In this document: positions 20,648-58,202 of the stretch, piece by piece
Numbering within the stretch: position 1 is the stretch's first letter
Layout of the letters: each line of letters opens with the position of its first letter
From: Sinohyriopsis cumingii
Taxonomy: Eukaryota > Mollusca > Bivalvia > Unionida > Unionidae
Assembly (NCBI GenBank): GCA_028554795.2
Contig: CM068830.1
Span: forward strand, 46,204,227-46,268,226
Length of the DNA stretch: 64,000 nt
Reading direction: 5' to 3'
Made by a program: the position numbers and the translations under genes
Notes under the pieces: generated by a model
What the model was told of the DNA's origin: nothing
The model's database searches: none
The model's input: the letters and a program-made list of their open reading frames with translations, nothing else

Positions 20648-20823
20648 GACACTGGATCATCTGGAACAGCTCTGATTTTATTCTGTTGCTTATTTTGCAA
20701 ACTATAGCAATCAGTACTAAAGTGTCCTTTCTTCTTTCAATAAGCGTACGTAATAAGAGAAAACTATTTCTGATTAGTCTTATGGAAAATTTAATTTTTT
20801 TAGGTTTTGCCAGATTGAGACTT
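20648..20823. repeat. 176-bp direct repeat, right copy
   Basis: Right-hand copy of the duplication that flanks the nested LINE. It continues without a break into Gypsy gag sequence at 20,824 and beyond, as the left copy does into protease. Confidence 0.93.
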
Positions 20824-26797: not shown

Positions 26798-27100
26798 CGT
26801 TGTCTCAGTCAGGTCGTGGTGTCCACGCGCTAGGAACTAATTTAAAAGACGAAACCCTTGTTGTCTTCTGTTGTACCTGACAGAGATGTTATAAATTAAA
26901 ACAGCAACTTAGTAAATTTGTATGTTAGCGTCATTTAATGTAGTTAAAGCGTCTAGTCTTAAATGCGAGAATAAATAGTTACTTTTAGCTACATTTAATA
27001 CCAATAACTAAAAATATACTGAGCTACATATATGATATGCTGTGTGAAATGAACTATAACAGAAAACACTGTTTCAGGCACACAGACAATACACATCGAT
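26798..27100 (+). repeat. Dispersed repeat, copy A
   Basis: The block 'ctcagtcaggtcgt...gtccac...aggaacta' (26,803-26,850) matches the complement of 59,868-59,925. The block with 'agcgtcattta', 'ttacttttagctacattta' and 'atgctgtgtg.aatgaacta' (26,925-27,060) matches 59,500-59,660 directly. The arrangement fits an element with inverted terminal segments, probably a non-autonomous DNA transposon. No protein. Confidence 0.6.
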
Positions 27101-27501
27101 GGTTAAAAATAATCCAGACTATCTCAAGAGCATCGGTAAAGCCGCAACAATAAGAAATGTGTTATATCAGAACAGCGTTCTTCCAACTTTGTCAAGCACT
27201 TCCAACCAGACCCAGCAGAATCAAACATTCTAAACAAATAAAAATTCCTGTATTTACCAAAGTAGTTCTTTCATCAGTCCACACGCTATTCTACAATATG
27301 TCCATTTAGTGTATTATTGTAACAGTGATTGTAACATATGCCATATTTCCAGGACAGAAATTATAAATGTCCAAGAATATCACGAATCAGAAATCTCCTC
27401 ATAGTCATACATAATTCATTAAAGCTGTCTACTTTTTTGAACTGAGTACCTTTTCCTAATATTGAAGTTTATCCAAATTAGAACTGACGAAAGTTAAAAG
27501 T

Positions 27502-27502
<1 letters not shown>
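27101..27502. other. No gene recognised
   Basis: AT-rich flank of the LINE insertion. Nothing identifiable. Confidence 0.5.

Positions 27503-27537
<35 letters not shown>
27503..27537. repeat. (TAA)n, 3' tail of LINE copy A
   Basis: A trinucleotide run directly at the 3' end of the minus-strand LINE. LINE copy B has the same type of tail at 46,360-46,513, which shows that it belongs to the element. Confidence 0.9.
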
Positions 27538-27540
<3 letters not shown>

Positions 27541-40340: not shown

Positions 40341-40889
40341 GCCTTTCACGGTGATATAGCGACAACAGAAATGGAATAGGTTAGGTGACGTCACGGTACT
40401 AGACATTGACAACAATGTGGCAAGGAGCTGACCTCAATCGGTCCAAACAGCAAACAGTGACAGGGGGTGGCGGGTAAGTTTAGCTAGTTCATAAACTATA
40501 CCAATTTTGAATATATTCTAGACCAAACCTGACGGAGAATCTTCTGTCTCTCCTTGCCCATATTGAATGGATAAATAAACCATATACCTTGACTCATATT
40601 CAGGAGAAGACAATCCCAATGAAACGTAATCACATTCAAACCCATTGTAACGCAAACAGGAAGGTTGGCGAAGAAGATTCCTCTGTCACTATAAATTTAC
40701 CCACCACCCGTCACCCTCCCTGTCTTGCGATGAAAGTCCCTACGAGAACGAAATTATTTTAGGCAACGTGAATAAATATTTTTGGAGGCATATGAGTGGC
40801 ACTGAAAAGGGCCTTTGATTTTTTTCTTCTTGTTCTTTTAATTTCTTCTTTTTATATACAAACTTCTTATTTTTTGCCCCACTTTTTAA
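40341..40889. other. No gene recognised
   Basis: Mixed composition, less AT-rich than the average here. The word 'gacagggggtggcgggtaagttta' at about 40,458 and its near complement 'taaatttacccaccacccgt' at about 40,693 could form the ends of an inverted pair some 230 bp apart. Otherwise nothing. Confidence 0.35.
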
Positions 40890-41228
40890 CAAACCCCAAA
40901 TATGCTATTCACACAAAGGTACACGCACTCATACAAACACACACTCTACTATCCACACAAATGTACTCGTATGCATACAAACACACAAATACACACACAC
41001 CCAGACGGAAGAATAAAACCCAAATATACTACCCACACAAACGTACGCGCAGCATACAAACACACAAACACACCCTCTACTTCCCACAAAAACGTACTTG
41101 CACGCTTACAAATCCCAAATCTGCTATCCACACACATGTAGAGTAGCAAAAAACAAACCCTAATATATAGTATCCACACACGGGATAGAGCAAAACAAAA
41201 ATGCTATCCACACACGGGAAGGATAACA

Positions 41229-41263
<35 letters not shown>

Positions 41264-41690
41264 CAATATCTACCATTCACACAAACGTACTCGAATGTAT
41301 ACAAACCCAAAATATTCTATCCAAAACCCTAATATATACTATCCACATATGGGAAGGAGAAAACAAACCACAATATCTACAATCCACACAAACGTACACG
41401 AACTTATACTAACCCAAAATATACTATCAAAAACCCTAAATATACTATCCACACACGGGAAGAAAGAAAAGATCCTGTACTCACACGGGAAGAAAATAAA
41501 ATCCCAATATAATATCCACACACGGGAAGAAGAAAATACAAACCCAAATATTCTATCTACACACTGTTAGAGGCAAAAAACACCCCCAAATCTACTATTC
41601 ATACATGGGAAGGAAAAAACAAACTCAATATCTACTATTAAAAAAATGTACACCAACTCATACAACCCCCACATTTTGGTGGCAAAAATG
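40890..41690. repeat. CA-rich degenerate minisatellite
   Basis: Repeated 'ctatccacacacgggaag', 'aaacccaaatatactatcc' and 'cacaaacgtacacg' blocks recur at irregular intervals of roughly 40-60 bp. A poly-A run of about 28 bases (41,236-41,263) interrupts the array. Apparent open frames on both strands follow the repeat and are not genes. Confidence 0.85.
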
Positions 41691-42067
41691 AATCTTGAAT
41701 TTGGTAAATTTGGTGCTGATTGATGGTCACGTTGTTGCACTGTGCATTGTTAACTCCTGAAACATACATATTGTTGAACTACAGACTCGAGGTTGTTCGG
41801 ATACTAAGTATACCAATTATTGTTCACCGATTGCGAAAGAAAGAATGATAAAAACTGGGTGTCTATACTATTGATTTCAAGATTTAGAGAAGTCTGGTAT
41901 TATAATAATTCATTATATTATATATATATATAATTGTCTTGGGTTATTAAGAATATTGCTCCACAATATTACTCTGTTACAGCTCGCACAATGATTATTC
42001 TGTTATTGTTCAGGGTCATTATAAATTCAACATCGAGATCAAAGTCGCGTTTATTTTTGTCACATTG
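41691..42067. other. No gene recognised, left flank of the virus-like element
   Basis: AT-rich, with a short TA run near 41,917-41,932. I looked for an inverted copy of the right flank (56.7-57.0 kb) and saw none. Confidence 0.4.
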
Positions 42068-43113
42068 TTAATAACCAACTAATTTTGTTCTTACTATATC
42101 ATCGCAAACAACTTCGTTATTGGTGTCAGCAGTTTCTGTAAAATTTACAATAACTCTGCGCAACTGAAATATTCTTCTGACTCGATAAACCAGGTTTGAC
42201 CATTCGATAAGATCATCATCGATCCAAACAACTGTATCAAAGATGGTTAATCCCAGTGATGAATGGATCGTCATTGCGTATCCTAACGTCCACGGAGATT
42301 TTAGCGCATCCTCAACAACACTGACGGGAACTAAAACAATATCTTTTGACACAAGATTTTGTTTTTCTGATGATCCTGGTATATCTGTCGTCGTGTATCT
42401 GCTGGTCGATAACACAAAGGTATGGGTAGATTTGAAAACTTTTCTTTAAAAAAAAACTGAAATAAAGGCTGTTGAAGTGTATCACGTACTATCTTTCTAC
42501 TTGCCACTATCAAATCGTTTAGTTTCCACACTTGCAGAAAATCATTCATAGAAGTTTCTGAAATTATTTCACGCATGATTTCAAATTGAATTTTATTTGG
42601 TTGTAATGTGATTAATTTCTCAAATTCTCTTAATTTTGGATCAAGTGATCTATGGTCTGTATTTACTTCCTCGTAATAATCTAAAAAATTCTTTAACCAT
42701 TTATGCGGATACAATCCAACTACAGGTGGTGGTTGACCATGATCGCAGCACATTATTACAACGGTGCTTTTTGTTAACAGCCAATCAAGAAATAATTTTA
42801 GTGTTTCTAGCCACACTGTACATATATCATCCCAAGCAATAATCCTTGGAATATATTTCTCTTACCTTCATTCAGGAGTCAATTTATCTCCTTTGTATCT
42901 ACAAAAGCTATGATAAGTACATGATTTTACTCCTCGTTCTCTCATTTCTCTTGCGAGTCTGTGTGTACGTGTTAAAATAACCATATCAACTGTACTCTGC
43001 CGAAATAATTCAATAACACGAGTCGTTTTACCAGAACTATCCGATCCGTTTAGATAAACAGTCTTATGTCTAGTCACGGGGTCATATACATATGGTGCTG
43101 ACGATAATTTTTA
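42068..43113 (-). pseudogene. SF1-type helicase domain of a virus-like element
   Basis: A minus-strand superfamily 1 helicase remnant. The Walker A (P-loop) block YLNGSDSSGKTTRVIELF lies at about 43,000-43,055, motif Ia-like VILTRTHRLAREM at about 42,945-42,985, and YHSFCRY follows. A Walker-B-like IIAWDDICTVW (about 42,815-42,850) and CCDHGQPPPVVG (about 42,710-42,750, motif III-like) come next. The C-terminal motif YAMTIHSSLGLTIFDTVVW (about 42,230-42,285) resembles motif V/VI of SF1B enzymes. Stops at 42,868-42,870 and 42,862-42,864 and a frameshift near 42,400-42,450 disable it. It is in the same frame as the end of the polymerase upstream, with only the stop at 43,111-43,113 between, so the ancestral product was probably a polymerase-helicase fusion. 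It would unwind DNA during genome replication. Confidence 0.75.
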
Positions 43114-45361
43114 TATCTGATTATTTTTGCGATAACTATCTTTAATCGGAACATCAGCGGATTCGGTATAACAGTGTAATTCTTCTTGTTTTATTCTACA
43201 TTCGCCCCAACCAGTACTTGTAAATTGAGTCAGTAATTTTGAGTATTTTCTTTCGAAATAAAATGAATATGTGGCGACTCTAAAAGCAAAATTTACCAAA
43301 TATGTTTATCATAGATAATAAATTTATCTAAACATACGCAAGCGTTGAAGATCTTAAATGAGCAAATTGCGGCGATTCACCATCAGTATAACTTACAGTT
43401 GTGATTAATTTAGTTCCATTTGCCAAAAAACTGTTTCTTTGAACTATAAACGGACTTTTGATGTGGCATCAGCAATTATGAAATCTAACTCAGCATCATC
43501 TATAATTAATCTTGTACGATGTCGTTTATGATCGCATGATCCACCTTGAGTAAATTTACCAATTATTTTGCTACCGAGATCTTTCATGACTTTTTCCTCA
43601 CTTTCATCCTTGATTATCTTGTTGCAAATTTCTGTAATTTCATCCACGTTGAGATAAGGAAAATTTTCTCTGATATTTTCCCTTACTTTGTCAGGGTTAA
43701 ACTTTCTGGTTGTGGTAACCAAACTTCTTTCTGAGGACGGTATGATATAATTGCTACACTGACCGACAATGATATCAGTATTTTTGCATCGAGGATATAT
43801 CGTAACAATACTATTGGTGCCCACATTTTCTCTGAAAAATGTCTACCCAACCAGGCATAGCAAATCAAATGGAGATCTTCAGCAAACTCAAATGACTCGA
43901 TACAAGCCAATCTGGTTAAATCAAAATCGGGTCATCTTGTGTGTGTGATGTCCAATTCGTTTAAAATACTTGGAACACTCTCCGATACCAGGAAATCTTC
44001 CTGGATAACATGTTGCCATATCATCTGAAATAACATCTCTATAATCGTATTTAGTATTCCACAATCCAACGTGTCCGTATTCGACACAGCTGCGTTTCAT
44101 ATCTTCAAGAAATTCCAATGGTGTTGATTTCCATAATCAGCAACTGACGTAACGCCAAAACAATTACTGAGTAATTGTTCAGCCCTGACATCATCGGGGG
44201 AGGGGGTATATCGCTGCGCAAGATTTTTCATTTCTTCGTGGAGAGATTCTAAACTATTAATAACTTGGCAAGGCCGAACAAATTGATCATAGTTTTCATC
44301 ATCGGAGGAACTTCGAAATAATCATACTGATACAGGATCATTCCTACTTATTACGTTAATAAAATCAAACATATCTCCGCGGTAAAATCAAACGGTTCGA
44401 TTTCGGGGAAATATTGTTATTGCGCTAGTCCACTCATGCGCATTATGATCAATAATTTCAATCGGAGCTCCTCCTTATTTTATAATGTTTCGAATCGTGT
44501 AAAATCTCTCCTGTTATTGATTTTACTAGTATTGGGAATTTTAGTGTTTTTCTAACTTAGCAACATCATTGATTGTAGCTCCCTTAAACTTGACCGATTC
44601 AGCCCACTCGCCCATTTTTTTACGTCGTAGATCCGTTAAACCATTTTCACGTATCGCATTTGTGAAATGCTCCGTTACTCGTTCGGCTACACAATTTAGC
44701 CTTGACAAAGTCAAGGACAAACATTTCATCGGCGCTAAATCATCAACGATGGGTTTATCATTCAGCGGATAAATTCCATAAATAACCGCGGTTACAGGAT
44801 ATGCTCGTGTATAATACGGTTTGTCAATACCAGTCAACATTCCTGGCTTTGAAGTTTTACTCAATATAACTATTTTTTTTAGCAAGAACAGGTTCGCGTT
44901 TACTAACCGTGATCCAATTATAGTCGTCACGTCTGATCAATTTTATCTCAACAAGATAGTTTTTGTCATTAAGATAATCGACGAATTGTTTTTCCTCGAA
45001 TATCATTCATTGTTGCATCAATGATCTTACTGTCGGTTATCCTGGATGTAGACCAAACATGGGTCATACCGCAGTTTTTAAACTCACGTTTTGCTTCGTT
45101 GATCGCGTTTATTAAATTATGGTAGTTAGGTAGATTTCTTCGTAATGGATCGGGATCTAATCGATCAAGGTCAAATCTGTTCGAAACATTTCTTTCTGGT
45201 ACAAATATAAATTCACGATCATGGTCAAATCTGTACGTTATATCTCTTCCAGGGTCAAATCTGAATCTAGAAGTTTTGATTATAGACAATCTCTCAAACA
45301 CTTCCATATTATAATCAAGACAATTATTTAAATTAAAAATATTATATATACAATGATCCAA
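43114..45361 (-). pseudogene. Family B DNA polymerase of a virus-like element
   Basis: Minus-strand polymerase remnant in several frames. A charged N-terminal part (45,361-44,969 and 44,930-44,541) precedes a coding-like piece around 44,350-44,130 (CQVINSLESLHEEMKNLAQR). Next comes the palm motif A-like SDDMATCYPGRFPG (about 43,990-44,035), then FAEDLHLICYAWLG (about 43,840-43,880). A Lys/Glu-rich frame (43,824-43,444) and QFAHLRSSTLAYV (about 43,330-43,370) follow. The palm motif C reads RVATYSFYF (about 43,255-43,282), where family B enzymes have an acidic DTDS-like core, so the key Asp appears replaced by Tyr. The frame continues into the helicase. An intact enzyme would copy a linear double-stranded DNA genome, possibly by protein priming. 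Several frameshifts and stops make it inactive. Confidence 0.68.
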
Positions 45362-45669
45362 ACAATGAACAAATGCATCTGGCTAAAGATAGATTCTACA
45401 ACTCCTTGTGAAAAGCTTGTGTTAATGAATTCTGCGGGCATCATTCACAAAGCGTACGGAGAGGGAGCTTAGGACAAAAACCTTGTTTGCAACGTGGTGT
45501 TGGAGTTAGAGGAGAAACACAGTTGTGAGCGTTGTGGAGGTAAAAATCCAGAGAGTTGAAGCGATGTTATGATATAAAAAATGACGACAATAATAACAAA
45601 TAAGGAACGCTGAAGACTATATAGCAAGATTTTCAAAATAATGATTTAGACAAATACTATTATGTATAA

Positions 45670-46149
45670 TGGAGCAAACTGAATTTGTTAAACATCCTAA
45701 CATCAAGAATTCTGAAGCATTTGGTGATGGTGTAATCTAAAATTGTGGAATAAAAAGAAAACAGTCGTTGCTGTCATAATCATGGTTATCTCACATTCAA
45801 TACCGAGAGAAATAAAATGTTTCTTTGCCATCAATTTATATATCAGTGTTTCTTTGGGGTAACCGAAGACGGCCTTGTGATCGATCATTTTGGTTCAGAT
45901 AAGAAAAATAACTCTTTCGTAACCTGCGAGCTATTACTCAAAGCGAGAATTGTGAATCTGGAAATACTGGAAAGCATAAAAAACTTCCTAGGGTCGTTAA
46001 ATCTGTAAATACAGAGACTGGTAAAGAAAAGATATTTCAATCAATGAATGCAGCTGGCAAGTATTTTTATATTTGCGTGCCATCGGTACAACGTATCGCA
46101 AATAAAATATACAAATCGGCGTATTCCAGAAAGTATAAACAAAAATAAT
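45670..46149 (+). pseudogene. HNH/NUMOD homing-endonuclease-like remnant
   Basis: A plus-strand degenerate gene, divergent from the polymerase. It starts with ATG at 45,670 (MEQTEFVKHPNIKN) and is soon interrupted by stops. A central block reads CHQFIYQCFFG (about 45,823-45,855), then GLVIDHFGSDKKNNS (about 45,872-45,916). After a frame change comes NLRAITQSENC (45,921-45,953). The His...DH...NN...NLR pattern is that of HNH nucleases of phage and algal-virus homing endonucleases. The C-terminal part TETGKEKIFQSMNAAGKY, then SVQRIANKIY (about 45,998-46,115) resembles the NUMOD1 DNA-binding repeat that follows HNH in that family. Such enzymes cut specific DNA and spread selfishly between viral genomes. 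It is disabled by a frameshift at about 45,915 and several stops. Confidence 0.65.
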
Positions 46150-46357
46150 AATTTCAGTATCTCCCGATTGTGTTAGATAAAGAGAGATTATTCTGTCGAG
46201 GATACGTAACGCGGTTAAGAGTCATCACGTGTATTTTTCGTTTATAAATTAACATCTTTGCATTGTTATGTTCTTTCTTTCGGTACACAACAAGCGAATC
46301 GGCGATACAAACAACGTATTTTTTTATATATAAAAAACAAAGGTATCTTACTTCAGA

Positions 46358-46359
<2 letters not shown>

Positions 46360-46411
<52 letters not shown>

Positions 46412-46448
46412 CAACAACAAGAACAACAACAACAACAACAGCAACAAC

Positions 46449-46513
<65 letters not shown>
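46360..46513. repeat. (AAT)n with central (AAC)n, 3' tail of LINE copy B
   Basis: A long trinucleotide run with an AAC-rich middle part (46,408-46,448) between two AAT blocks. It abuts the 3' end of the minus-strand LINE, as the shorter tail of copy A does. The poly-Asn, poly-Ile and poly-Leu open frames over it are artefacts. Confidence 0.95.
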
Positions 46514-46514
<1 letters not shown>

Positions 46515-49500
46515 GAGGACTTTGTATAGAACCTAATCTTTAGAAGCTCTAAGCGCTTTACAACATTAGACAACTCATATAACATAAAAAAACATATATA
46601 ATGATATTATTACAAAAAACAAACACCATGACATTAGAAAACATAAAAAACATGCTGAAAATATTTAAGGTAGGAAATAATATTAGGTCTTCAAGCTTGG
46701 TCTTGCAGTCGTAATAAGTAAGTTTTAAGAGCACTCTTGAATGGGATCACTGTGTCTTTGTGTCTAAGTTCAGTGGGCAATTCATTCCACTTTTTTCTGG
46801 GCCCTAGTACGCAAAAGAAAGTTGTCCATATGACTTCGTTTTTGTAGTGGGAATAATGAGTATACGATTGTCAGAAGAGGAGCGTAAGTATCTTGCTGGT
46901 GTGTACACGTGGGTGAGGTCGGATAGGTATGTTGGACTAGAGTCCGTCAGTGAAACGTAGCACAGAGAACAAATTTTGTGTTTGATTCTGGATCCAATGG
47001 ATAGCCAATGTAGGGTACAGACCATCGGGAGGTGTGCTCTAATCGTGGTACTCTAAGTATGGTCCGAGCAGCTGTGTTTTTGAACTTTTTGAAGTTTCTT
47101 GAGTAGATATTGAGATGAACCAGACAGAATTGAGTTACAATAGTCCAGTCATGAAAGTACTAATGAACACACAAGTATTTTAGTGGCATCAGCTGAAAGA
47201 TATTTGCGAATGGAGATGATGTGTATCAGCTCAAGATATGCAGCCTTGCATATGTTCATGACATGTTGGTGCAATGTGAGAGTATTGTCCAGAGTAACAC
47301 CTAGGTTTCGCATTGACAGTGTGAATTTAATGTTAGAAGTTGTTGTTTGTGTGGTTTAACGCCATTTTTCAGCACACGATAGACTATACATGGCGGCCAG
47401 TATTAATGGTGGACGAAGAACCCGGGAAAAATCCGGAAAGAACCACTGACCCACGAGGAGCTACTGGCAAGCTTTCTCACATACCCACATTGGTTGAATC
47501 CAAAACTGGAACTGGCGCAAACAGATTTGAGATGGCAGTGATCCGTAACGGACAGCACTTTAGACCACTCGGCCACTCGAGGCCCCATTTAATATTGGTG
47601 TTGCTGATATTTATTGTTTGAGGTAAAGGATGTGAATGAGAAAGTATTTGTGTTGTGATCAGAATGGCCTCAGTTATATCATATTTATATGCAGCTTGTT
47701 ACATGTCATCCATAATTTCACATTAGAAATGTACCTTGCTACACCTTGGATGGTAGCATCAACTTCAGTTGGGTGGCTAGATTTGTATATTTGGGTGTCA
47801 TCAGCGTACAATTGGTGAGACACTGGATGATGACCTGAGAGCGGTTGAGTGTATAGAATGATGAGAACAGGTCAAAGAACAGACCCCTGTTGACCACCAC
47901 ATCATAGATTAACTGGGCTGGAGTGTATTCCATTTGCAGACACAATTTGTGTCCTGTTGACCAAGTAGGATTGAACCACAGAAAGCTGTATCATGAATGT
48001 CAAATACATGCTGGAGACAGTGAATTAATATATCATGGTCTATTGTGTCAAATGCTGTAATATATCATGGTCTATTGTGTCAAATGCTGCAGACAAATCA
48101 AGGAGGGTGAGGACTGTAATCTTTCCGCTATCCAAAGCAGAGAGAATGTCATTAACTACTTTTAGAAGAGTAGTTTCAGTACTGTGGCAAGGGCGATATG
48201 CAGATTGTATATTGCTAAAGTGACTGTTTGAATTCAGATGAGATACAAGCTGGGATAGAACAACCTTTTCTAAGATTTTTTATATGAATGGGAGATTAGA
48301 AACTGGGCGGTAGTTCTTTCAATCGTTATGGTCTAGTGTTGATTTCTTCAGCAGAGGCTTTACAATGGCAGTTTTGAAAAATGATGGGAATTCCCCGGAT
48401 GAGAGAAAGGTATTAATATCATCAGTTAGTGAGGGTAATGCTGGATCTAAGCAGTAGTAATGTTGGAATTGGATCAAGTTCACATGACTTTGGTTCAATC
48501 TTCATCAGGAATGTACGTACGATATCCATAGAGACAGGTTCAAATGATGCTAATGGTTGCCGCTCAAATTATGTATCCCAACTGTATGGTGACGACGAGT
48601 CAATTGCAAATTGTGTTGTCAAGCTTATCTCTAAAGGTTTGTACTTTGTCACGGAAGAAATCTGCAAACATATCCGGAAGGTTGACTGGAGAGAAATTTG
48701 TTGGAAGTGGTGTACATTTGTTCCTTAACATTAGCTTGTTAGTAATTTCGAAGAGCTCTTTGCAGCTGGAACTTTCCATGATCTTAGTAGTGTAGTGGGC
48801 TGATTTCGCTGTATGGACAATATTTGTGACATTCTTCATAGCAGCTTCATAGATTTGCTTATGAATAGTGAGTCTGGTGGAAAGGCGAAGCCTCTCAGAT
48901 TTACGGCGGTCTCTTTTAGCAGTGCGAAGCTGGTCCCTAACACTTATGTACCATGGACAGCACTTTTGAATTGGTGTTCTGCACTTGGTAGCTCGGGCAT
49001 GTTTGTCTAGCAATGAACGCAGGCAGTTATCGAGTTGTTCTGCTGTAGGAGGTAAGCAAGTTTTTAGGTGTGCTTGGATGGCATGCATTAGTTTGGTTCT
49101 ATTTATCATAATGTGGTTTCTCTTAGTAGCAGATAAAAGTGGAGGGTTAGAGACTAATACGTCAAGATGGCATATAATGCAGAGGTGATCTGATGCAAGT
49201 TCGTGAATACCAGGGAGGACGGTAGAATGTTATCATCAGGTCTATGAAGAATCCAGTCTAACATGTGACCATGTTTATGGGTGGGTTGGTTAACTGACTG
49301 TTTGAGGTTGAAAACATCAATGGAATCTAGGAGTTTTGATGTGCTTGATTTTCCAGGACAGTCAAAGTGAAAGTTGAAATCTCCAAGAATAATCAGGTTG
49401 CCACCTATCGAATTTCCATAGTCCAGAAGATACGGAAACTGCTCCAAAAAGAGATTCAGTCAGCTTGTTTTTTTCTACTAGGAGCAGTGTGGTATAGGCA

Positions 49501-50061
49501 GAAAAAATGGACTGACCTTTGCTCCAATGTAAGTTATGGTGTGGTTAAGACGTTTCATCATGGAATTCTTTGTGATGACAGCAATTCCACCTCTTCGAGA
49601 GTGGCAGGGGACCGAATTGATGGAGTAACCAGTGGGTGTTAGATACACGCACTTGGACTCATCACCTGATGTTTTAGCCCTGTTTCGGTCAGGAAAAAGA
49701 CGTCGACATTCTGGTCGATGATAAAATGATCTACTTCTGTGCGCTTTTCATCTGGTCCTACTGACTGGGCATTGAATAATGCAATACGCAGAGGTATCTC
49801 TTAGATAGCTGACACGAAGGTTGACGATTTAATAGGGATTTGAAACAGGTTATCTAAATTAATGGTCGAATTTTTAAAGTTTGGAGCCGGAAAGGGCAAG
49901 AGCGAGATAACTGGAATTCTTCTTCCTGTTCTACGCCGGCCAGCTTTGAAACAACGTTTCTTTTTTAGCTTCTGTTTACATTTAAGTAATAATGAATATA
50001 GTCCCAGTTCGTTTAGTCTAGAGCACATTCTAGCATAAACGGGTTGACTGGCAAGTATCAC
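46514..50061 (-). mobile_element. CR1/L2-like LINE, copy B, nearly full length
   Basis: A minus-strand LINE of the same family as copy A. It is inserted between the polymerase/HNH half and the structural half of the virus-like element. The upstream region (50,061-49,801) has a Lys/Arg-rich stretch KCKQKLKKKRCF. The endonuclease begins around 49,790 (LRIALFNAQSVGPDEK) and shows the catalytic-type block LIILGDFNFHFD (about 49,365-49,400). The linker frame (49,109-48,600) is open for 169 codons. The reverse-transcriptase region (48.2-47.6 kb) is heavily damaged, and the C-terminal part (47,025-46,804) retains YLRSSSDNRILIIPTTK. A SINE (47,335-47,586) interrupts the polymerase. An imperfect local duplication of 'atatcatggtctattgtgtcaaatgctg' lies at 48,029-48,086. 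Non-functional. Confidence 0.92.
47335..47586 (-). mobile_element. tRNA-derived SINE nested in LINE copy B
   Basis: Same family and orientation as the SINE at 36,241-36,496: a head 'ggggcctcgagtggccgagtg', then a body with 'ttccgg.tttttcccgggttct' and 'gccgccatgtatagt', and an (AAC)-rich tail. It is flanked by 'atttaatgtt' (47,325-47,334) and 'atttaatatt' (47,587-47,596), a 10-bp duplication with one change. Copy A of the LINE has the uninterrupted site at about 28,341, which confirms the insertion. The B-box region is more diverged than in the other copy. Confidence 0.92.
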
Positions 50062-50719
50062 ATGATGGCGGTTTGATCACCAACAAAGCAAGTTGTAGCA
50101 GTGGAGCAAGACAGCTGAGAAAAAGTCTAATTGTTCTCGTTTGAAAAAATAGGAGATGAAGAAACCCATACGAAATGAACAGCCAATGCATGATGAACAC
50201 TATAACGTTGACGAAGACAGACAACAAGAACATATATCATGAAAACGGCCGAAGAAACGGAACAGCTGCTTTAAGCCGGTTAAGCAATAGAGGCAATCTT
50301 GAATACTTATATATAAAAAAATAACTATATTGTAAGACAGCATCCTTGGCAAAGTTCTGATATAATCCTTGACAGAGTCATTAACAGCGTCAAGAGGAAA
50401 TAACTCTCTTGGATAAAGTTTACACACAATTTATTTTTGGTTGTTTTTTTTTTTATAAAAAACATTTTTCTTATTTTTCTGAATCTGTCAGGTTTCTTGC
50501 TTGATCTAGATTTCGTCAGCGATAATAATTAATAAAAAAGAAGAGTGAAAACATCAAATAAACTACTTCTATTGCGTGAGCTACTTTTGGATTTGTATTA
50601 GTTGGCTTATATGGAATAGGACCCGTTTTATCATTGAGGTCCAACCCTAAATTTGCTCGAACTTCAACACACAATCACACATGTGATGGGTGCTCTTTTG
50701 CACTCTCCCGGGATTGATT

Positions 50720-50721
<2 letters not shown>
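50062..50721. other. LINE 5' region or flank, nothing certain
   Basis: Two minus-strand frames (50,233-50,030 and 50,427-50,200) lie immediately upstream of LINE copy B and may be its 5' leader. They carry no known motif. Confidence 0.4.

Positions 50722-50756
<35 letters not shown>
50722..50756. repeat. (GT)n microsatellite
   Basis: An uninterrupted GT dinucleotide run. Confidence 0.97.
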
Positions 50757-50759
<3 letters not shown>

Positions 50760-50791
50760 TAAATCTGTTGAACTAGACAAGGCCCCGTATA

Positions 50792-51000
50792 TGTACTGTA
50801 TCGTACTTAGAATTAAGTTAGATGAGATCGTATGTTGTACCGTCCTTAGAATTAAAATTGTATGTTGTGCCGTCCTTAAAAATAAGGTAGATAAGATTGT
50901 ATGTTGTGCCGTCCTTGTAATTAAGTTAGATAAAATTGTATGTTGTGCAGTCCTTAAAATTGAGTTAGATAAGATTGTATGTTATATCGTCCTAATACTT
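50792..51000. repeat. 39-bp tandem repeat, about five copies
   Basis: The unit contains 'gtatgttgtgccgtccttaa' and then 'aattaagttagataagatt'. One copy is shortened (near 50,850). The plus frame through it reads as a repeated 13-residue Val/Cys/Lys peptide but ends soon after, so I regard it as non-coding. The unit length is the same as that of the 25-kb array but the sequence is unrelated. Confidence 0.9.
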
Positions 51001-51010
51001 CTTTATTTTA

Positions 51011-51360
51011 AATACATACTTATTATAGAACGAACTATGAAAATATCAATGTTATTATTTCTGCAATTAAAAAAATTAAAAAATTAAAACATGACGGCAT
51101 AAAAATATGTGATGAACTAAATCCTGAAAAAATTATTTGTGATTTTGATTCATTACAAGAGCGTAAATTCGAAATTGGATATTCACTACCATCAGAATAC
51201 AAATTCATTAAGAAAATTCAACAGTCTGTGTTCAAATCCTTAACTGTGGTCGAAGAAACAGAAGTGGAGAAATTCGTATCACTTTCGGGCGTGATCGAAA
51301 CAATTAGATCGGAATTGTCTCACGAATACGAAACCAAAAACATATTAACATCCGTGTGAG
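51011..51360 (+). CDS. Unrecognised plus-strand open frame in the virus-like region
   Basis: A plus-strand frame open for about 115 codons, without a good ATG near its start. Readable parts are INVIISAIKKIKKLKHDGIK, CDFDSLQERKFEIGYSLPSE and SLTVVEETEVEKFVSLSGV. The amino-acid use is that of a real protein: charged, helical, no low complexity. It ends at TGA 51,358-51,360. Its strand is opposite to the capsid and polymerase genes, like the HNH remnant. It may be an element gene whose start was lost. No function can be given. Confidence 0.4.
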
Positions 51361-51779
51361 ACAATTAAGAAAGATTATCTCTATAGTAATGAAAATGAAA
51401 GTGAAAGTGAAAACACTAGCGTTAATGATTATAAAAATGAAAATGAAAGTGAATAAAAACACTTGCAATATTTATTCTGAAATATTTATTCAGATTTTTT
51501 TATTATTCTGATAATATTTTTTATACTGATTTTCTTTGACTAACCGACTAAAATTCAGATTTTTTTCAAATATAAATACTTCTGTGACTTTTCTACGATC
51601 GCTGATCTCTGTTAAGATTTCACAGAGATTCAAATTCAAATTTTCATTCAAGCAAGTGTCCGGATTGGTCAGTAAATTTGAAATGTATACTTAATAATAG
51701 CGCATTATGAATCGTAGATAGACCGGATTGATCGGTTTTTGCACCGTCCAGTATCCGGGAGGGGCTTTTGGCGTTAAAG
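51361..51779. other. No gene recognised
   Basis: AT-rich, with short 'gaaaatgaaagtgaa' direct repeats at about 51,390-51,455. Nothing else. Confidence 0.45.
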
Positions 51780-51877
51780 TAAAAGAGACCGCCGTAAATC
51801 TGAGAGGCTTCGCCTTTCCACCAGACTCACTATTCATAAGCAAATCTATGAAGCTGCTATGAAGAATGTCACAAATA
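51780..51877 (+). mobile_element. LINE linker fragment, inverted copy
   Basis: About 97 bases are identical, in inverted orientation, to 48,822-48,918 inside LINE copy B, covering the endonuclease-polymerase linker. No other LINE sequence flanks the fragment. It was either a very short insertion or was copied from copy B by a rearrangement. Confidence 0.9.
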
Positions 51878-51904
51878 CTATACAAAAATGATATATTTTG
51901 GTGA

Positions 51905-52490
51905 GAGTTTAAATATGGCGTAACTGATGAAGGTACCTACAAAATAGATATTACCATCAATGGACCTTTTGGTACTATTAATCGCGAACACAAACAACAA
52001 CGAGAAAAATTGCGTCTACCTTTGACAGAGTATCTTTTTGTCTTGACGTCCGCCAAAGATGAGATTATTAAAACAAATAGAAGTATTAAATCAGATTGCA
52101 TTTGATACTGAATCTACTTACTGGAATTTCATACAAATGGTAAACAAGTCAGAAAACAGACTCAAGCAAATCTTTCTTAATAAATATTCAATAACAGAAG
52201 CAGATTTGGAGACTTTTAATTTTTTTGAGTATTGCCGAACTAAAAAAAATCTACTGACAATCTCATTAGTGAATATTTTCCTAAAATACTTGAAGAGTGG
52301 AGAAAAATAGTCCCACCGGCAAGTATTCTCCGATATAACAATAATGAGCACGGCGAAGGTAGACATATTTCACCCGGAATTGTAAATATAACTTCAACGA
52401 TCTCAGTCAATCTTGTATGTGATGCAATCGATGTTAGTTATCAAACAGATCAAGCTCAGCTTGGGATTGCATCACAAGGAAATATTAAGG
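51905..52490 (+). pseudogene. Unrecognised degenerate plus-strand gene
   Basis: Coding-like plus-strand blocks: YKIDITINGPFGTINREH and LRLPLTEYLFVLTSAKDEII (about 51,930-52,060), then after a frame change FDTESTYWNFIQMVNKSENR (within the 83-codon frame 52,059-52,310), then ISEYFPKILEEWRKIVPPAS and ITSTISVNLVCDAIDVSYQ (about 52,268-52,450). The last part converges on the 3' end of the minus-strand fibre-like gene. Composition is protein-like throughout, so an ancestral gene of about 190 codons is likely. I recognise no family. Confidence 0.42.
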
Positions 52491-52499
52491 ACTGTTTGT

Positions 52500-53057
52500 T
52501 GCGTCGACGTCGTTGCTAATCTTTGCGGTCTCTTTAAGCCGTTGAAAATTACGACCAGTATTTTTAAACGAACCAACATGTAGATCATACTCGGCCAGCA
52601 ACGTGGATAACTTAGCGTCTACGGTACTTTTGTTGTTGTCTACATATTTTTATTTTGCAGCATCTTCATCAGATGTTGGATCTCTTAAAACAACTATTTT
52701 ATTTCCGTTCATGCTGAGTTCACCTTTCACTGTATCACCGGTAGATCGTAACCGACCGGCAATTTCATCTCTAATAGCTGCAATTGATATATTTGAATCT
52801 CTGATTTTTCCGACGTCAGTAAATACTGTAATATTATCCGTGGTAGCACCGAGAACTCTACTAACTATGTCATTCCATTTGATATTACTTGTTTTTAAAA
52901 CACCGTAATTTTCCTGAAAAACAACAACTTCATCTCGGTCAACTCCAGAGAGGTTCATAATATTAGCGATTTCATCTTTAGTCGCGTAATTTGATAAATC
53001 CACGCCATCGGGTTCTTTCTTCTTCCGCGAAGAGGATCTTACATAAATATCCACCAT
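52500..53057 (-). pseudogene. Fibre-like protein of the virus-like element
   Basis: A minus-strand frame of 135 codons from ATG at 53,055-53,057, with a basic N-terminus (SSSRKKKEPDGVDLSNYATK). The block GDTVKGELSMNGNKIVVLRD followed by PTSDEDAAK is the signature found in tail-fibre-like and capsid-spike-like proteins, where it is followed by a KYVD-type residue string. Here a TAA at 52,650-52,652 falls exactly at that point, and the same frame resumes with KYVDNNKSTVDAKL and runs on to about 52,500. The intact protein would therefore have been about 185 residues. A structural attachment role is inferred from the motif and from its place just downstream of capsid and protease. Confidence 0.6.
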
Positions 53058-53242
53058 TATTCGTTATAACGTCCACTTGTATAATTGTGCACGACTTTGT
53101 GAGGCGGTAATGTTGATTTTGATATAGCGGTGAGTATAACAATTACTTCACGTACGCATATTGTCTATGTTGGTAATGTTGAATACCAGATAGGCGTTGT
53201 TTTTATTGTGCTGGACCGCTTGCGGTCTACGTAATTCATAAA

Positions 53243-53472
53243 TTACTTTGGTGGAGCCAACCCATACGAATCGAAATAAATAATTCCACGTGGATCAATC
53301 GCGTATGAAACCCAATGATTACCAACACCGGTGTTATTATTAAGATCAATAATGACTGTTTCAATATTGTTTGGTTGAGCGGCAACTGATCGCTTATAAA
53401 AACATCTCTAAAAGTCTTGATCTTCAATTTCTTAGCAGCATCAAGTAAATCCAAATTTGACATCGGTGCCAC
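53243..53472 (-). pseudogene. Adenain-like cysteine protease (truncated)
   Basis: On the minus strand the N-terminal part (from 53,472) reads SNLDLLDAAKKLKIKTFRDV. After a frame change (about 53,380-53,410) the catalytic region reads GNHWVSYAIDPRG and then IYFDSYGLAPPK, ending in a TAA at 53,243-53,245. The HWV...YFDS...PP pattern is that of adenovirus-type (C5/Ulp1-like) proteases of Polintons, adintoviruses and virophages, with the catalytic His present. The C-terminal part with the catalytic Cys is not in frame, and beyond the stop I see only short remnants (about 53,120-53,240). An intact enzyme would cleave capsid precursor proteins during maturation. Confidence 0.72.
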
Positions 53473-53565
53473 CGTCAGCGGTGAAAACTATTGTTTTTTT
53501 TACTAACGCAGAGTTCCTGGAAGTCTCAGACCTTTTCCGCATCGATAGGGGGTTCCTGGAAGTCT

Positions 53566-53778
53566 CAGACCTTTCCCTCTTTTTTTATTCCTTGTCCTTT
53601 TGCTTTCTTTAATGCCATCCCAGCAGCGGTTCCAACTGCACCTAACGCGGCCACGTTTGCAACGGCTGGAGCTTTAGCGGCTATCAATGCTGGTATCGCC
53701 GCGAGAAGTGGAAATATGCCACCTGATTTAGTTTTGTCTGAAATAGCACCTGCAGAAAAAGTAATTCATATTTCAGTC
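53566..53778 (-). CDS. Ala/Gly-rich hydrophobic virion-type protein
   Basis: A minus-strand frame between capsid and protease. Its core is SGGIFPLLAAIPALIAAKAP, then VANVAALGAVGTAAGMALKK, followed by a basic tail KAKGQGIKKE. An amphipathic, Ala/Gly-rich stretch before a Lys-rich end is usual for minor capsid or membrane-active proteins encoded next to the protease in this kind of element. No ATG precedes it, so it may be the C-terminal part of a longer gene. A 25-bp direct repeat ('ggttcctggaagtctcagac' plus 5 bases; about 53,510 and 53,552) lies just downstream and separates it from the protease. Confidence 0.5.
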
Positions 53779-55104
53779 TTGGCTTTCTTAGCATGATTTT
53801 TGTCACTGAGTATAACAGCAATTGCTCTGTAATTAACACCGTCACCTGGATTTACGCTGGCTCGAAAATGAAAATCAACATCAGTTTGTCTGGATAAATC
53901 AAGATGCTATAGCGAAAAGTAATAGATCGGATAAAGTTTTTTATAATCAAGTTGTGATATTTGCAATCCTGTGTCTACGTTTTGGTCGCGCCCCATAAAT
54001 GTCATTAACCGATGATACACAAGCGCTATGATTTTGATCAAACTTCAGTAATATATTTTCAGTTGGTTCTTGTTGTCCGTTTATTCGAAGCGAAACTTCA
54101 TTAACACCAAGTTTGTCAAATATCACATGACTACGCGTTTGCGAGTTTAGTCGATCAGAAATTTGAAACGCAACAAATATATGTCGTGATGAAGAAACAC
54201 CTTGCTGTGATGCTATATGCCATGTAAATAACCCGTCAATGTTACTCTGAATACTATCCGTGGTTACTGTTGACCAACTCAGCAATGATTTACCGCCTAG
54301 GTCCATAAATGACAACAATCACTGTTCTTTTGCAATCGTTGGAGTCATTACCGGCATCCACAACGAAAATTTTGTCAGTACTACTTTACCAGCATCACCC
54401 ATAGATCGCCAAATAGCGTCGTCATCAGTGGCTTTTCTTACAAGAGAAACTGTGTGTTTAGCTCCACAGATAACTTTTCTAGCACTTCTACAAAATCCAA
54501 AGATGTGAAATAGTGGAATCGCGCATGAAAAACCTCTACGCGCTTGTCCCAGCATTGCTCGACGTGTTACAAATCCTATGTTGTATTCTGGATTAGCACC
54601 GTGAACCACCGGCCACACATCAGCGTCAGCGTTATCGGCATTGTTTCTTGGTCGTCTTATATTATACTGTACGTCGCTAGGATGGTCGGAAGTGTCCATC
54701 GCAAACATAATTGTGAGGCCGGCTGATCTTGTATAATTATCAGAGTATCTTGCTAAGCTTATTATTGTTGTAGCAACGTCGACGTCTTTCTGAATTGTTT
54801 CGATGTTTTTTCTATCAATTATGTACGTAACGCTAACAAACAATGCCATGATACCGTTATTGACAAAACCAACTCTAACTTCATTTACATATGCAGTATC
54901 ATCTGTTTTTATAATTTCACCTTCTACTTCAATAAAAGCCTCAGCGGTAAGAAATATACTTGTATCGTGGACTTGTAATTCAATTCTTCCTCGTTGATTT
55001 GGTAGTTGTGCGTCATAAGAATAAAATTGATAATCACGTACCAATTTATCCTTGAGAACTGACGCATCCATGTCGAACACTCGATCGGATATACGCTTAA
55101 ACAT
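53775..55104 (-). pseudogene. Major-capsid-like protein (double jelly-roll type)
   Basis: The best-preserved gene of the element. I take ATG 55,102-55,104 as the start. One frame runs to 53,947, interrupted by a single TGA at 54,319-54,321. After a frameshift a further block (about 53,790-53,930: RQTDVDFHFRASVNPGDGVN, then YRAIAVILSDK) completes it, about 440 codons in all. Features that recall a capsid family scattered through invertebrate genomes are the early beta-rich part (RIELQVHDTSIFLTAEAFIE; VGFVNNGIMALFVSVTYII), the central CAIPLFHIFGFC followed by LVRKATDDDAIWR, and GKVVLTKFSLWMP. It would form the icosahedral shell. The assignment is by remembered resemblance and by its place beside the protease, and needs a structure prediction. 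Confidence 0.68.
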
Positions 55105-55174
55105 CACGTACCGATTCATCCTCGAGAACTGGCGCATCCATGTCGAACGCTGGATCGAATATACGCTTAAACAT
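55035..55174. repeat. 70-bp tandem duplication at the capsid start
   Basis: Two direct copies, 55,035-55,104 and 55,105-55,174, each 70 bp with 7 differences and no indel. Each contains a complete copy of the presumed start codon and first codons of the capsid-like gene. As 70 is not a multiple of three, the upstream ATG is out of frame with the gene. Confidence 0.95.
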
Positions 55175-55188
55175 CTTTATTATAATCA

Positions 55189-55473
55189 TTATCGTCTAAC
55201 ACGAAGACCACTTCGGTAAATACCACTCCCAGCTATCAAACTTTTTTCTGCTTTTCCTGCCAGCTCTGATAGTATTTTGTTTGCGGCTTGATTTATTATT
55301 TTACTGACATTTGCAGGCATAATTTCGGTGCTTGGTAATTTTACTGGTGCCTTGACGGATGTCAAAGGTGGTTTTTGTAGAATTAATTGTGCTAGTCTTA
55401 TTTTGATTGCCGAGAATGCTTTATCACTAACAGCACCAATACCTTTATCAGGAACAACATCAATAACTTTCAT
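55189..55473 (-). CDS. Small basic protein upstream of the capsid gene
   Basis: An open minus-strand frame of 94 codons, ATG at 55,471-55,473, ending 15 bases before the 70-bp duplication. It is Lys/Ala-rich (SAIKIRLAQLILQKP; MPANVSKIINQAANKILSEL) and ends in a strongly basic SGLRVRR. The start overlaps the end of the preceding small frame by 14 bases, as in compact viral genomes. It is probably a minor virion or DNA-binding protein of the element. Family not recognised. It is the only frame in the element that I see as intact from start to stop with coding composition, apart from the frames at 55,460 and 56,325. Confidence 0.5.
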   Translation of the reverse strand: MKVIDVVPDKGIGAVSDKAFSAIKIRLAQLILQKPPLTSVKAPVKLPSTEIMPANVSKIINQAANKILSELAGKAEKSLIAGSGIYRSGLRVRR

Positions 55474-55615
55474 TCATAGTTTTTTTTGCAATCCTTCTGA
55501 ATAGACCCTGAACAACATCGCAGAGCCCATCACTGTAAATTGCTGTCCAAGTTGGTAATCGCGAATTCATCACCCTAACCATTACCGGTCCACGTTGAGC
55601 ATTATGTATGATCAT
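55460..55615 (-). CDS. 51-codon open frame in the virus-like gene cluster
   Basis: A minus-strand frame from ATG 55,613-55,615 to TGA 55,460-55,462. It begins MIIHNAQRGPVMVRVMNSRL and contains PTWTAIYSDGLCDVVQGLF. It overlaps the next gene by 14 bases. Its composition and tight packing argue that it is real. It may be a minor structural protein. Function unknown. Confidence 0.45.
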   Translation of the reverse strand: MIIHNAQRGPVMVRVMNSRLPTWTAIYSDGLCDVVQGLFRRIAKKTMNESY

Positions 55616-55639
55616 CTTATTTATTATTTAGTTATCTAA

Positions 55640-56176
55640 TAATTGTGGTAATCATCTACGATCTCATTGATAAGTTCCCGATAAACATCGATGTCCGTGA
55701 TACCTCCTGTAAATAATATTCGACAAATATCAGCTGCTTCATAAATAATTTCTGGAGAATTATTTCCAGCACGTTACCCTCCAATCAGAATTTCTAATCG
55801 TTCTACGTCAGAAAAAACGTTGTTAGGACGGGCAATAAAACTATTTCCCGCTGGCGTAGTCAAAGGAAAACCACTTCCAGTAGCGTTAGTATCAGGTGCA
55901 TCGTAAAATTCTTCTTTAGCTTTTCTAGAAGATTGTGATTTTGTTCTGTTGTCGTTCTATCTGTTGCTGCGATGAAGGAAGTTGATATGAAGGCTCTTGC
56001 TCAGGAGGTTCTGGTTGAGAACATTTTAACTTCCTCGGTGATTGTTTCCCTTGTTTTTCTAGCATTTCGAAATATTGATCTATTCTAGTGCGATAAATCT
56101 GATACACCGGATCACTCGTATCTACTTGATTAGTTCCTTGGTTTATACAAAAAAAGTCATTTGTACCACATTTCAC
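55640..56176 (-). pseudogene. Gln/Pro-rich protein of the virus-like element, frameshifted
   Basis: The minus-strand frame from 56,176 (MKCGTNDFFCINQGTNQVDT) continues through a Pro/Glu/Gln-rich stretch (QPEPPEQEPSYQLPSSQQQ) to a stop at 55,925. In another frame it resumes with KAKEEFYDAPDTNATGSGFP and AGNSFIARPNNVFSDVERLE. An in-frame stop at about 55,775 follows, and then AADICRILFTGGITDIDVYR to about 55,640. Read together, one gene of about 175 codons with one frameshift and one stop is likely. Family not recognised. The position upstream of the capsid suggests a virion or accessory role. Confidence 0.45.
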
Positions 56177-56324
56177 GACCTACACCCTCATCATGTTCTT
56201 CTTTTAAAAAATTACGCATCCGAGGAAAACTTGCAGCAGCAAATCCCCTTAATTAATTTATATCGTATTTATTATTGTTTGTATACCATCTTCCGTAAAC
56301 TTTTCCATAAAACTAACTCCCTTC

Positions 56325-56717
56325 CTACCCTTCTTTGACGTTTTTTTCTTCTTCTTCTTCCTTGTCAATGACTGGCTGAACGGCGACCGCTTGCGGTTGT
56401 GGTTGAGCAACAGCTATCTCAGTTGGAAGATCTCGTAAAATCTTTTTTGTTTGTTTAGTTCTTTTTGCTATTTTTTCAGTTTGCTGAGCAGTTTGTCTTA
56501 ATGATAGATTAAGACCTTCAGGAGCCGTCGCAACTCTTTCATTAACTTTTGTAACAGGTCTAACTAATTGTTCTGTACCCTCTGCAAATTCCACATGAGA
56601 TTCTTGACGTTCTTGTAGTTTTTGTCTAAATGAAGCACGAACGGGAAGAAACTTTTTAATTAGTTGTAGTCGTTCTCGAGCTAATCTAGCTGTAAAAGAC
56701 TCCAACGCTGGTGCCAT
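56325..56717 (-). CDS. Charged helical protein at the right end of the element
   Basis: An intact minus-strand frame of 130 codons from ATG 56,715-56,717. The N-terminus is basic and helical (FTARLARERLQLIKKFLPVR; RQKLQERQESHVEF), the middle is Thr/Lys-rich (LRQTAQQTEKIAKRTKQTKK), and a Gln/Val stretch leads to an acidic tail (DKEEEEEKNVKEG). It is likely coiled-coil and could be a scaffold or minor structural protein. It is the first gene of the leftward cluster. No family recognised. Confidence 0.5.
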   Translation of the reverse strand: MAPALESFTARLARERLQLIKKFLPVRASFRQKLQERQESHVEFAEGTEQLVRPVTKVNERVATAPEGLNLSLRQTAQQTEKIAKRTKQTKKILRDLPTEIAVAQPQPQAVAVQPVIDKEEEEEKNVKEG

Positions 56718-58202
56718 TATTGATATAACAATGATTTAATTATAGCAGCAGAGAGGTGCGAACTCTCCTCCTGGAGGTGGGTTTGCCCTGGTAGAAAGCT
56801 TTTATTTTCCAAAATGGAGCCTTCCTTCTTGAAAGCTTTATTTTTCAAAATGGGGCTCCCTCCCTGAGGTGGGTTCGCCTTCCTTACTATTGCCCTCTAT
56901 ACCTTCAACTTAGAAATTCTTATATTGGTCCTAATTATTGTCAGAAATCAAGCACGTAAAAAATACTCGGAGAACTTGAATATGAAGACTCAACAAATAC
57001 TAATATCTCTGTAACTATGTGTATAATGCATTCCAAATTGGACTATGTTCTCTCGCTGTCTTATTCCATCTTCACTCTGCAAGTCAATTACGTTATGAAG
57101 CCACGTAATTCGTATCGCTCCCGACTTTAATTGTATAGCTGTTGTTCATGGTTGTCCGTCCATCCCCAGAACACGTGAAACAAACGTAATCTTTTCAGTA
57201 AGCAATTCTCATAGAAAAGGTCTTGTTACACCATTATGATGCTAACAGAAAATCGTTGTACAATTTATATCCTTCGATTCAAATAACAACAATAAATCAC
57301 CTGAAAACTACTTTTTGTCATCTTTTGCATTGTTTGTAAACAATTTAAACAATTATTACATTGTTAATTATTAAGTATATGTGGTGTTTGTATATATTGG
57401 AGAACACGGTACATAAGATCATTATCCTAGTTTTCTAGTTTTTTTTATACATTCAGTTGCCATTCTAAGGTTGGCATTTCGCCGGATTTGCTTCACTTTC
57501 CAACAAGGAAATCGTTTGTATTTGAATGGCATAATTATCAAGTGGAGTTTTATGATATCGATAGTTACAAATCCTTTGTCTGCCGTAATGGCATCACCAC
57601 GTTCTTGCTTGTCACTGATGCTTCCAGCCCAAAAGACACAAAATTTATTATTCCAGATGAATTATTCCAAGGGAATGTTAAGTATGTATTGTGAGACTTG
57701 TATCGCGGGTGCATTAGTGATTTATAGACCATTGACTGAGGATTTTAGGTAAAAAGTTTGTTATGTATATTTAATTTGTATTCTTTGTTGGCCTTTGTAT
57801 TGATTGTGTGTAATATATATATATCTTTATTTTCTACTTGATCTTGTGCAAAATCAAGTTAATTGTCTACCTGACCAATGATATTTATGTTGTAAAAGAC
57901 TTAATACATAGAGAATATTTTGTATGAGTGTGGATTAAATATTCAGATCATTATCAATGGAGGTAAACGTGTTTATTCTTGCCTTGACATCTGAAGCAGA
58001 TCAGTCTTATTGTTGTTGTTAGTTTTTCGTTTGCGTGGAATTATTTATTCAAATTATTATTCAATAGTCAAAAGACTGTTAGCACATCACCTGTTTGCAT
58101 GCCATTGGCACATTGACAAACTACAGGCAGATAAAAAATCATTAAATATAGGGATTTTATTTGGAACACCACTGGATTTCAATCGGAAATTAATACATTT
58201 TA
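56718..58202. other. No gene recognised, right flank of the element
   Basis: At 56,770-56,890 two short direct copies share 'gaggtgggtttgcc', 'gaaagctttta' and 'ccaaaatggagc'. They may be the outer edge of the element. The remainder is AT-rich. A short open frame at 57,471-57,752 has no motif. Confidence 0.4.

Follow-up and report, generated by a model that had tools for sequence, protein, structure and literature searches.

What kind of element left a capsid-like gene, an adenain-like protease gene and helicase-bearing replication sequences side by side in the genome of the mussel Sinohyriopsis cumingii? The locus lies in a stretch of 64,000 nucleotides (G000:C7:46204227-46268226), called the window below, which was compared with the 2.9-Gb genome of the same species (1138 contigs). 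The original prediction saw in it a fossil double-stranded DNA virus of the adenovirus/Polinton lineage. The place in the polinton world of double jelly-roll (DJR) capsids, the capsid itself, the adenain-like protease and the replication gene hold; the conventional protein-primed family B DNA polymerase (pPolB) does not. We conclude that the region is very probably the old remains, broken and truncated, of one copy of an endogenous DNA virus-like element that belongs to the polinton-like supergroup and is present many times in the genome, and we place its family among the Tlr1/polinton-like elements.

The capsid gene and its family in the same genome

Two open reading frames (ORFs) on the minus strand, 54322-55176 and 53950-54318, belong to one frame with a single stop between them. 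Both match PF21738, co-linearly in the profile (E 8.3e-5, 22.4 bits, and E 6.3e-5, 22.8 bits, respectively), with scores lower than the curated cut-off of 27 bits; an unbroken relative reaches 82.8 bits (E 3.5e-23). The predicted structure of the longer frame matches DJR capsids. Profile and model together bear out the capsid candidate proposed earlier: the fold for which a structure prediction had been suggested was found, and the virus-like interpretation was not refuted. We assign the two frames to the DJR major capsid protein (PF21738/Varidnaviria). A sequence search of the PDB with the capsid ORF as query gave no match. Among 399 candidate proteins, 37 match the longer ORF at up to 73% identity, 28 of them with PF21738; the homologues with an organism name (three of the 37) come from Potamilus streckersoni and Sinanodonta woodiana, both freshwater mussels of the Unionidae. 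In a tree of 33 selected rows (the window ORF, 10 loci of the same genome and 22 of the 37 database matches), the window capsid groups with five copies of its own genome with a support of 90/84, which was not starred by the tool. A 70-nt tandem duplication (55033-55172, 63 of 70 positions identical) runs across the capsid start.

Searching the genome with the PF21738 profile yielded at least 126 places, and with the window ORF at least 136, its own place included. The two sets share no place and add up to at least 262 different capsid places, and many of these have frames that are unbroken; the intact related copies for which a search had been recommended are thus present in abundance. The other 135 places of the window-ORF search are 70-76% identical to the window ORF among the matches listed, and PF21738 matched none of 14 named control genomes. 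Four natural copies could be followed to both ends, with lengths of 14,667 (C15), 15,984 (C9), 16,753 (C2) and 17,287 bp (C14). All four possess target duplications and the terminal inverted repeats that had also been sought, which the window copy does not show. The repeats are identical at 665 of 669 (C14), 497 of 497 (C2) and 517 of 520 (C9) aligned bases, and at 237 of 237 in C15, where the first 240 bases were compared. Element ends inspected at base level start with AGCAGCAG(A/G)G. The target duplications measure 5 bp in three copies (GTTTT, GAAGC, CCTAC) and 7 bp in C15 (AAAGCGA).

Unbroken relatives code for an rve integrase (3.9e-8), a PLA2-like protein (PF08398, 6.4e-13) and, in a frame of 221 aa, an A32-type packaging ATPase (Pox_A32, 6.3e-12), together with several further genes without a convincing family match. 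The earlier statement that integrase, ATPase and terminal repeats are missing is consequently right for the window copy and wrong for the lineage, of which relatives have all three, and the suggestion of a lineage lacking an integrase has to be abandoned. Homology to the replication protein is found beside the capsid in eight copies: C2, C9, C12 and C14 at 42.9 Mb by tblastn, C3 and C4 by unbroken frames, and C1 and C15 by DNA homology. This count leaves out a rearranged copy on C14 at 3.89 Mb (L018-L019).

The outer terminal repeats of three copies end in cassettes of 146-254 bp with inverted ends of their own, of the AGCAGCAGAG type (Table 1); one C14 cassette arm differs from this type by a base. 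At C3:104692000-104721999 (L009-L011), about two element units stand head to tail with a period of 14,521 bp and an identity of 99.9-99.98%. Their junction joins both element ends and is, by our count, 7 nt short of a plain join; the array is either a real concatemer or an assembly fault. A 19.15-kb tandem duplication at C15:75742000-75781999 (L014-L017) holds a whole element with its flanks. Two capsids lie 19.9 kb apart on C4 (133094489/133114345), and a further two, on C11 (113152768/113160248), are separated by 7.5 kb and point in opposite directions.

The replication protein and the rival explanations

The original prediction treated a family B polymerase and a superfamily 1 (SF1) helicase as separate genes. 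Since a single gene of 998-1031 aa in relatives spans window positions 45181-42113, the 'polymerase' and 'helicase' stretches are, judged from sequence, parts of one replication gene, with an N-terminal and polymerase-like portion at about 43110-45181 and a helicase portion at about 42113-43110. It aligns with the 1031-aa relative at 44-67% identity, with E down to 0.0 (tblastn). The helicase was correctly recognised: AAA_19, AAA_30, SF1 motifs and Pif1-like solved structures identify the C-terminal third as a Pif1-type SF1 helicase. Within the window, AAA_19 is matched at 42871-43110 (6.2e-5; 23.6 bits, cut-off 25.1).

The polymerase portion is assigned from motifs only, on our own reading of an alignment of 17 rows of homologues, some of them fragments. 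An NCVA-type Cys motif is present in all 15 rows with letters at this place (two fragments do not include the region), HN.HAW in 15 of 17, the CYP of motif A (D...CYP) in 16 of 17, and VATDS, motif C minus its first Asp, in 14 of 16; an HLR-type motif also occurs in the alignment. The spacing from motif A to motif C is about 220 residues, compared with 207 and 208 in phi29 and PRD1 and 262 in a pPolB of the same genome. This order and spacing would fit a polymerase, and the large protein is probably a protein-primed polymerase-helicase fusion of the Tlr1-like type (pPolB-S1H).

Relatives of the replication protein were met in the coral Desmophyllum pertusum and the fungus Cetraspora pellucida (P0051, P0052), and several database relatives have a weak HNH-like tail. 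The sole result of one scan of prokaryote genomes was a relative in an archaeal metagenome-assembled genome (MAG), on the 3.2-kb contig JAADDH010000070.1 (L042). A phage collection gave 30 records; the 20 listed among them match the helicase part only, at 24-25% identity. Beyond the relatives already known, profile searching with the replication alignment brought one further relative, of 498 aa, and a weak match to a helicase. No relative of the lineage came up in four scans of IMG/VR, for which the queries were the capsid ORF, an alignment of capsids, a relative of 428 aa and the replication alignment.

Several results weigh against our interpretation. Pfam searches of the 17 replication homologues, with E up to 10, returned no PolB family, PF03175 included, and hhalign against an alignment of three pPolB sequences gave P 0.21 for the whole protein and 0.23 for the palm region; profile searches thus did not confirm the polymerase of the original prediction. 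The structural model of the relative P0039 is poor (mean predicted local distance difference test score 53), its best PDB matches are helicases, and long N-terminal stretches fall outside the comparison. None of the sequence searches, the profile search with the replication alignment included, matched a named Tlr1-like protein. The protease of a relative matches Peptidase_C5 below the cut-off (8.8e-4; 19.4 bits versus 21.3). Terminal repeats were not recognised in the window copy, and its own insertion therefore cannot be demonstrated. Finally, the evidence for the family comes from genome sequence. In a viral fold library, the best row for the P0039 model was H6WBE3 (999 aa; E 2.6e-16, 1162 columns, template modelling score 0.19, root-mean-square deviation 41), and a protein of Tetraselmis viridis virus S1 was also listed (E 6.3e-9, 411 columns). 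Both would suit a Tlr1-like protein, but the matches are unreliable because the model is of low confidence.

A variant of the main reading that differs from it in a single step is possible, though doubtful: the large protein would be a helicase whose N-terminal part is not a polymerase, and DNA synthesis would be left to the host or to co-resident conventional polintons. The lack of any PolB profile or fold match, a motif C without its first Asp and the coexistence of conventional pPolB loci would all agree with this. However, the motif order fits a polymerase and the A-to-C distance lies between those of phi29 and PRD1 and that of a pPolB of this genome; moreover, PMC11071308 argues that other polymerases keep their activity without this Asp.

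The conventional pPolB loci also bear on a second explanation. PF03175 (DNA_pol_B_2) has at least 75 scored places in the genome, many in frames of about 1360 aa (for example C7:122371500-122376400, L043), and none in 14 control genomes. Two polinton-type systems coexist in this genome. The window could in principle hold a conventional polinton/Maverick (adintovirus-type) copy, with an exonuclease-bearing pPolB and an rve integrase, in which the polymerase has decayed beyond recognition; relatives do carry the rve integrase, ATPase, protease, DJR capsid and terminal repeats of such elements, and pPolB loci of that type exist here. This explanation is nevertheless improbable: unbroken relatives have the 998-1031-aa SF1-helicase protein without a PF03175 match, and not one of the 75 scored pPolB places lies within 25 kb of the 262 capsid places, among the matches listed.

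With a polymerase-helicase fusion as the preferred reading, the family may work as follows. The integrase would insert linear DNA and thereby make target duplications of 5 bp (three of four copies) or 7 bp (one of four), the large protein would perform protein-primed or helicase-assisted replication, the ATPase would package the DNA into icosahedral particles and the adenain-like protease would mature them.

State and gene content of the window copy

Comparison with relatives by blastn moves the limits of the element from the 42068-56717 first proposed to 41932-56752. By DNA homology, the low-coordinate limit falls just beyond the position of the relatives' integrase stop, and the high-coordinate limit is the inner edge of their right terminal repeat. 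The gene order is as expected from relatives (tblastn, blastn), one inversion excepted, and frame changes are present in the replication, HNH, protease, hydrophobic and small virion-type genes. About 9.9 kb is homologous, that is, 14.8 kb minus a 4.9-kb stretch bearing a long interspersed nuclear element (LINE). The LINE insertion had been correctly recognised, and is attested by RVT_1 (2.3e-8), by Exo_endo_phos (7.2e-5, under the curated cut-off) and by a second copy in the window at 27495-29843, 87-92% identical. Between the same flanking genes, near relatives carry some 1.1-1.3 kb of sequence that is particular to them, beyond the homologous 9.9 kb, and the earlier estimate of about 11 kb without the LINE is therefore fair. 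An inverted piece identical to the LINE stands beside the inverted gene stretch (Table 1).

No tblastn match to the integrase or PLA2-like genes was obtained anywhere in the window. The absence of integrase, PLA2, ATPase and terminal repeats is due to truncation of this copy and is not a trait of the lineage. When the terminal cassettes were aligned with window 56744-57350, one of six local alignments exceeded the maximum of 50 shuffles (C9R, plus strand, 46 versus 38); consequently, we do not assign a terminal repeat to the window. There is a single exact site in the window for the 13-nt motif AGCAGCAGAGAGG, which equals the family terminus motif, and it lies at the high-coordinate limit of the element. 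In relatives a similar motif is internal at this position, so that the window site may not mark the element end.

The HNH nuclease (Pfam and tblastn), the adenain-like protease (tblastn with unbroken relatives, Pfam), the fibre-like and hydrophobic virion-type genes (tblastn) and the small upstream genes (tblastn with unbroken relatives), all proposed in the original prediction, were recovered (Table 1). The HNH_3 match in the window scores 20.8 bits against a cut-off of 24.8, and a relative matches HNH_3 at 7.3e-16. The adenovirus-type maturation protease (Peptidase_C5) has a catalytic His/Asp/Gln/Cys pattern; H, D, Q and C are present in the unbroken protease frame of a relative. The structural-type gene of about 519 aa lies on the minus strand in relatives, whereas its middle part is on the plus strand in the window. 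By position only, it is a candidate for the single jelly-roll penton protein (minor capsid).

Table 1. Features of the element copy in the window, in order of position, and terminal cassettes of relatives
Feature	Position	Strand	Evidence and remarks
Whole detectable element copy	41932..56752	- (capsid strand)	blastn against near natural relatives, 65-78% identity
Broken replication protein gene, about 1000 aa	42113..45181	-	Several frames; tblastn with unbroken 998- and 1031-aa relatives
Remnant of small gene ORF151 (Cys-rich)	45412..45582	+	tblastn 45%, E 2.5e-7; relative has weak DZR_2 match (0.063)
HNH nuclease, at least two frames	45669..46184	+	HNH_3 2.9e-4 on window ORF; tblastn
No element homology detected: LINE copy (minus strand), AAT/TTA tract, minisatellite	46185..51092	.	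RVT_1 2.3e-8; repeats
Remnant of small gene ORF128/134	51093..51353	+	tblastn 55%, E 1.7e-27
Structural-type gene of about 519 aa, C-terminal remnant	51623..51783	-	tblastn 46-52%, E 2.8e-7; also E 1.2e-6
LINE-identical piece, inverted relative to LINE copy	51780..51884	+	Inverted repeat I1, 105 nt, 97%; 98 nt at 100%
Structural-type gene of about 519 aa, middle part, inverted relative to neighbours	52056..52486	+	tblastn 27-56%, E 3e-25
Fibre-like gene, roughly first half	52527..53057	-	tblastn 70%, E 2.3e-74; phrog_2710 tail fiber 0.0021
Adenain-like protease, two frames	53063..53466	-	tblastn 49-69%, E 1.9e-33
Hydrophobic virion-type protein, two frames	53518..53810	-	tblastn 70%, E 5e-20
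DJR major capsid protein	53799..55104	-	A single in-frame stop and a frame change; the final ~20 residues were not recovered
Small virion-type gene (158-167 aa in relatives), two frames	55192..55621	-	tblastn 53-61%, E 1.9e-31
Gln/Glu-rich gene (350-493 aa in relatives), both ends recognisable	55651..56702	-	tblastn 58-62%, E 3e-27 and 4e-25
13-nt family terminus motif	56744..56756	+	Exact match
Terminal cassettes of relatives	L034:140-393, L035:7173-7426, L038:453-598, L039:7060-7205, L040:1424-1571, L041:7260-7407		

After its insertion, the window copy would have lost the low-coordinate end with integrase, PLA2, ATPase and terminal repeat; stops, frame changes, a partial inversion and the LINE insertion would have followed. 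It is an inactive, ordinary fossil. That the locus is an assembly artefact, or viral or parasite contamination and not a chromosomal copy, is most improbable: the relative in the archaeal MAG contig and the 14.5-kb tandem array, which could be an assembly fault, might be quoted in its favour, but capsid places are spread over many large contigs, the copy in the window shows decay and is interrupted by a LINE of which the window holds a second copy, and homologues are annotated in two freshwater mussels.

A fragment resembling the packaging ATPase (22100-22261, plus strand; tblastn E 2.2e-4) and one of the adenain-like protease (34603-34767, plus strand; E 1.4e-8) lie elsewhere in the window, outside the main copy; the window may therefore contain traces of other copies. 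A block of direct repeats is found at 40885-41700, near the truncated end of the element. Long ORFs of repetitive look occupy 25390-26830, and 19682-20656 (minus strand) holds an unbroken frame of 325 aa with no Pfam match at E 0.01. An Rfam scan of the window gave nothing at gathering thresholds.

Relation to known elements

With Polintons/Mavericks and adintoviruses the mussel family has in common its size, terminal inverted repeats, rve integrase, ATPase, adenain-like protease, DJR capsid and residence in an animal genome. It differs from both in its large protein, an SF1-helicase fusion that gives no PF03175 match, where they have a pPolB with exonuclease. Polinton target duplications are 6 bp, whereas here they are 5 bp in three of four copies.

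The closest architecture of the large protein to be considered is that of Tlr1. In the available part of PMC11071308, Tlr1-like helicases are reinterpreted as pPolB-S1H fusions with a vOTU domain, without an exonuclease and with a motif C minus its first Asp, and such fusions are described from polinton-like viruses (PLVs) and transpovirons; background on TVpol and SF1 helicases is given in the accessible text of PMC3671162. Tlr1 of Tetrahymena has rve, ATPase, both capsid proteins and a PIF1-like helicase, according to the portion of PMC4642659 consulted, which describes PLVs without a protease. Like Tlr1 and the Tlr1-like PLVs of these sources, the mussel family has an rve integrase (as in Tlr1), a packaging ATPase, a DJR capsid and one large protein in which polymerase-like motifs, with motif C minus its first Asp, precede an SF1 helicase; vOTU-like Cys/His motifs (NCVA-type, HN.HAW) are shared by motif only. 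Unlike them, as described there, it resides in an animal genome and has an adenain-like protease and a PLA2-like domain. Transpovirons share the Tlr1-like fusion and have lost the structural module (PMC11071308, same part), whereas capsid genes are present here. OmPLV of the dinoflagellate Oxyrrhis marina (PMC12721341) is likewise an endogenous element in which a single protein joins an SF1 helicase to polymerase motifs, but its helicase is N-terminal and its exonuclease kept, while the mussel family has its helicase at the C-terminal end and shows no exonuclease.

In the available part of PMC10120064, a protist-centred survey, metazoan capsid genes of the supergroup, cnidarian excepted, fall into one Maverick-Polinton cluster. 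Our literature search found no Tlr1-like element of a mollusc; it covered adintovirus and SF1-helicase/polymerase-fusion work in part, and novelty is not claimed. We tentatively suggest that animals (at least freshwater mussels, perhaps corals) may host a separate particle-making DJR lineage of the Tlr1 type, with a polymerase-helicase fusion, beside conventional polintons. If this is true, head-to-tail arrays such as that on C3 would be traces of joined or circular replication forms. The presence in an animal of at least 262 capsid loci of a Tlr1-like, integrase-bearing lineage would extend this gene architecture to a new host group, and its occurrence beside conventional polintons would offer, within a single host, a natural setting in which to compare two replication strategies.

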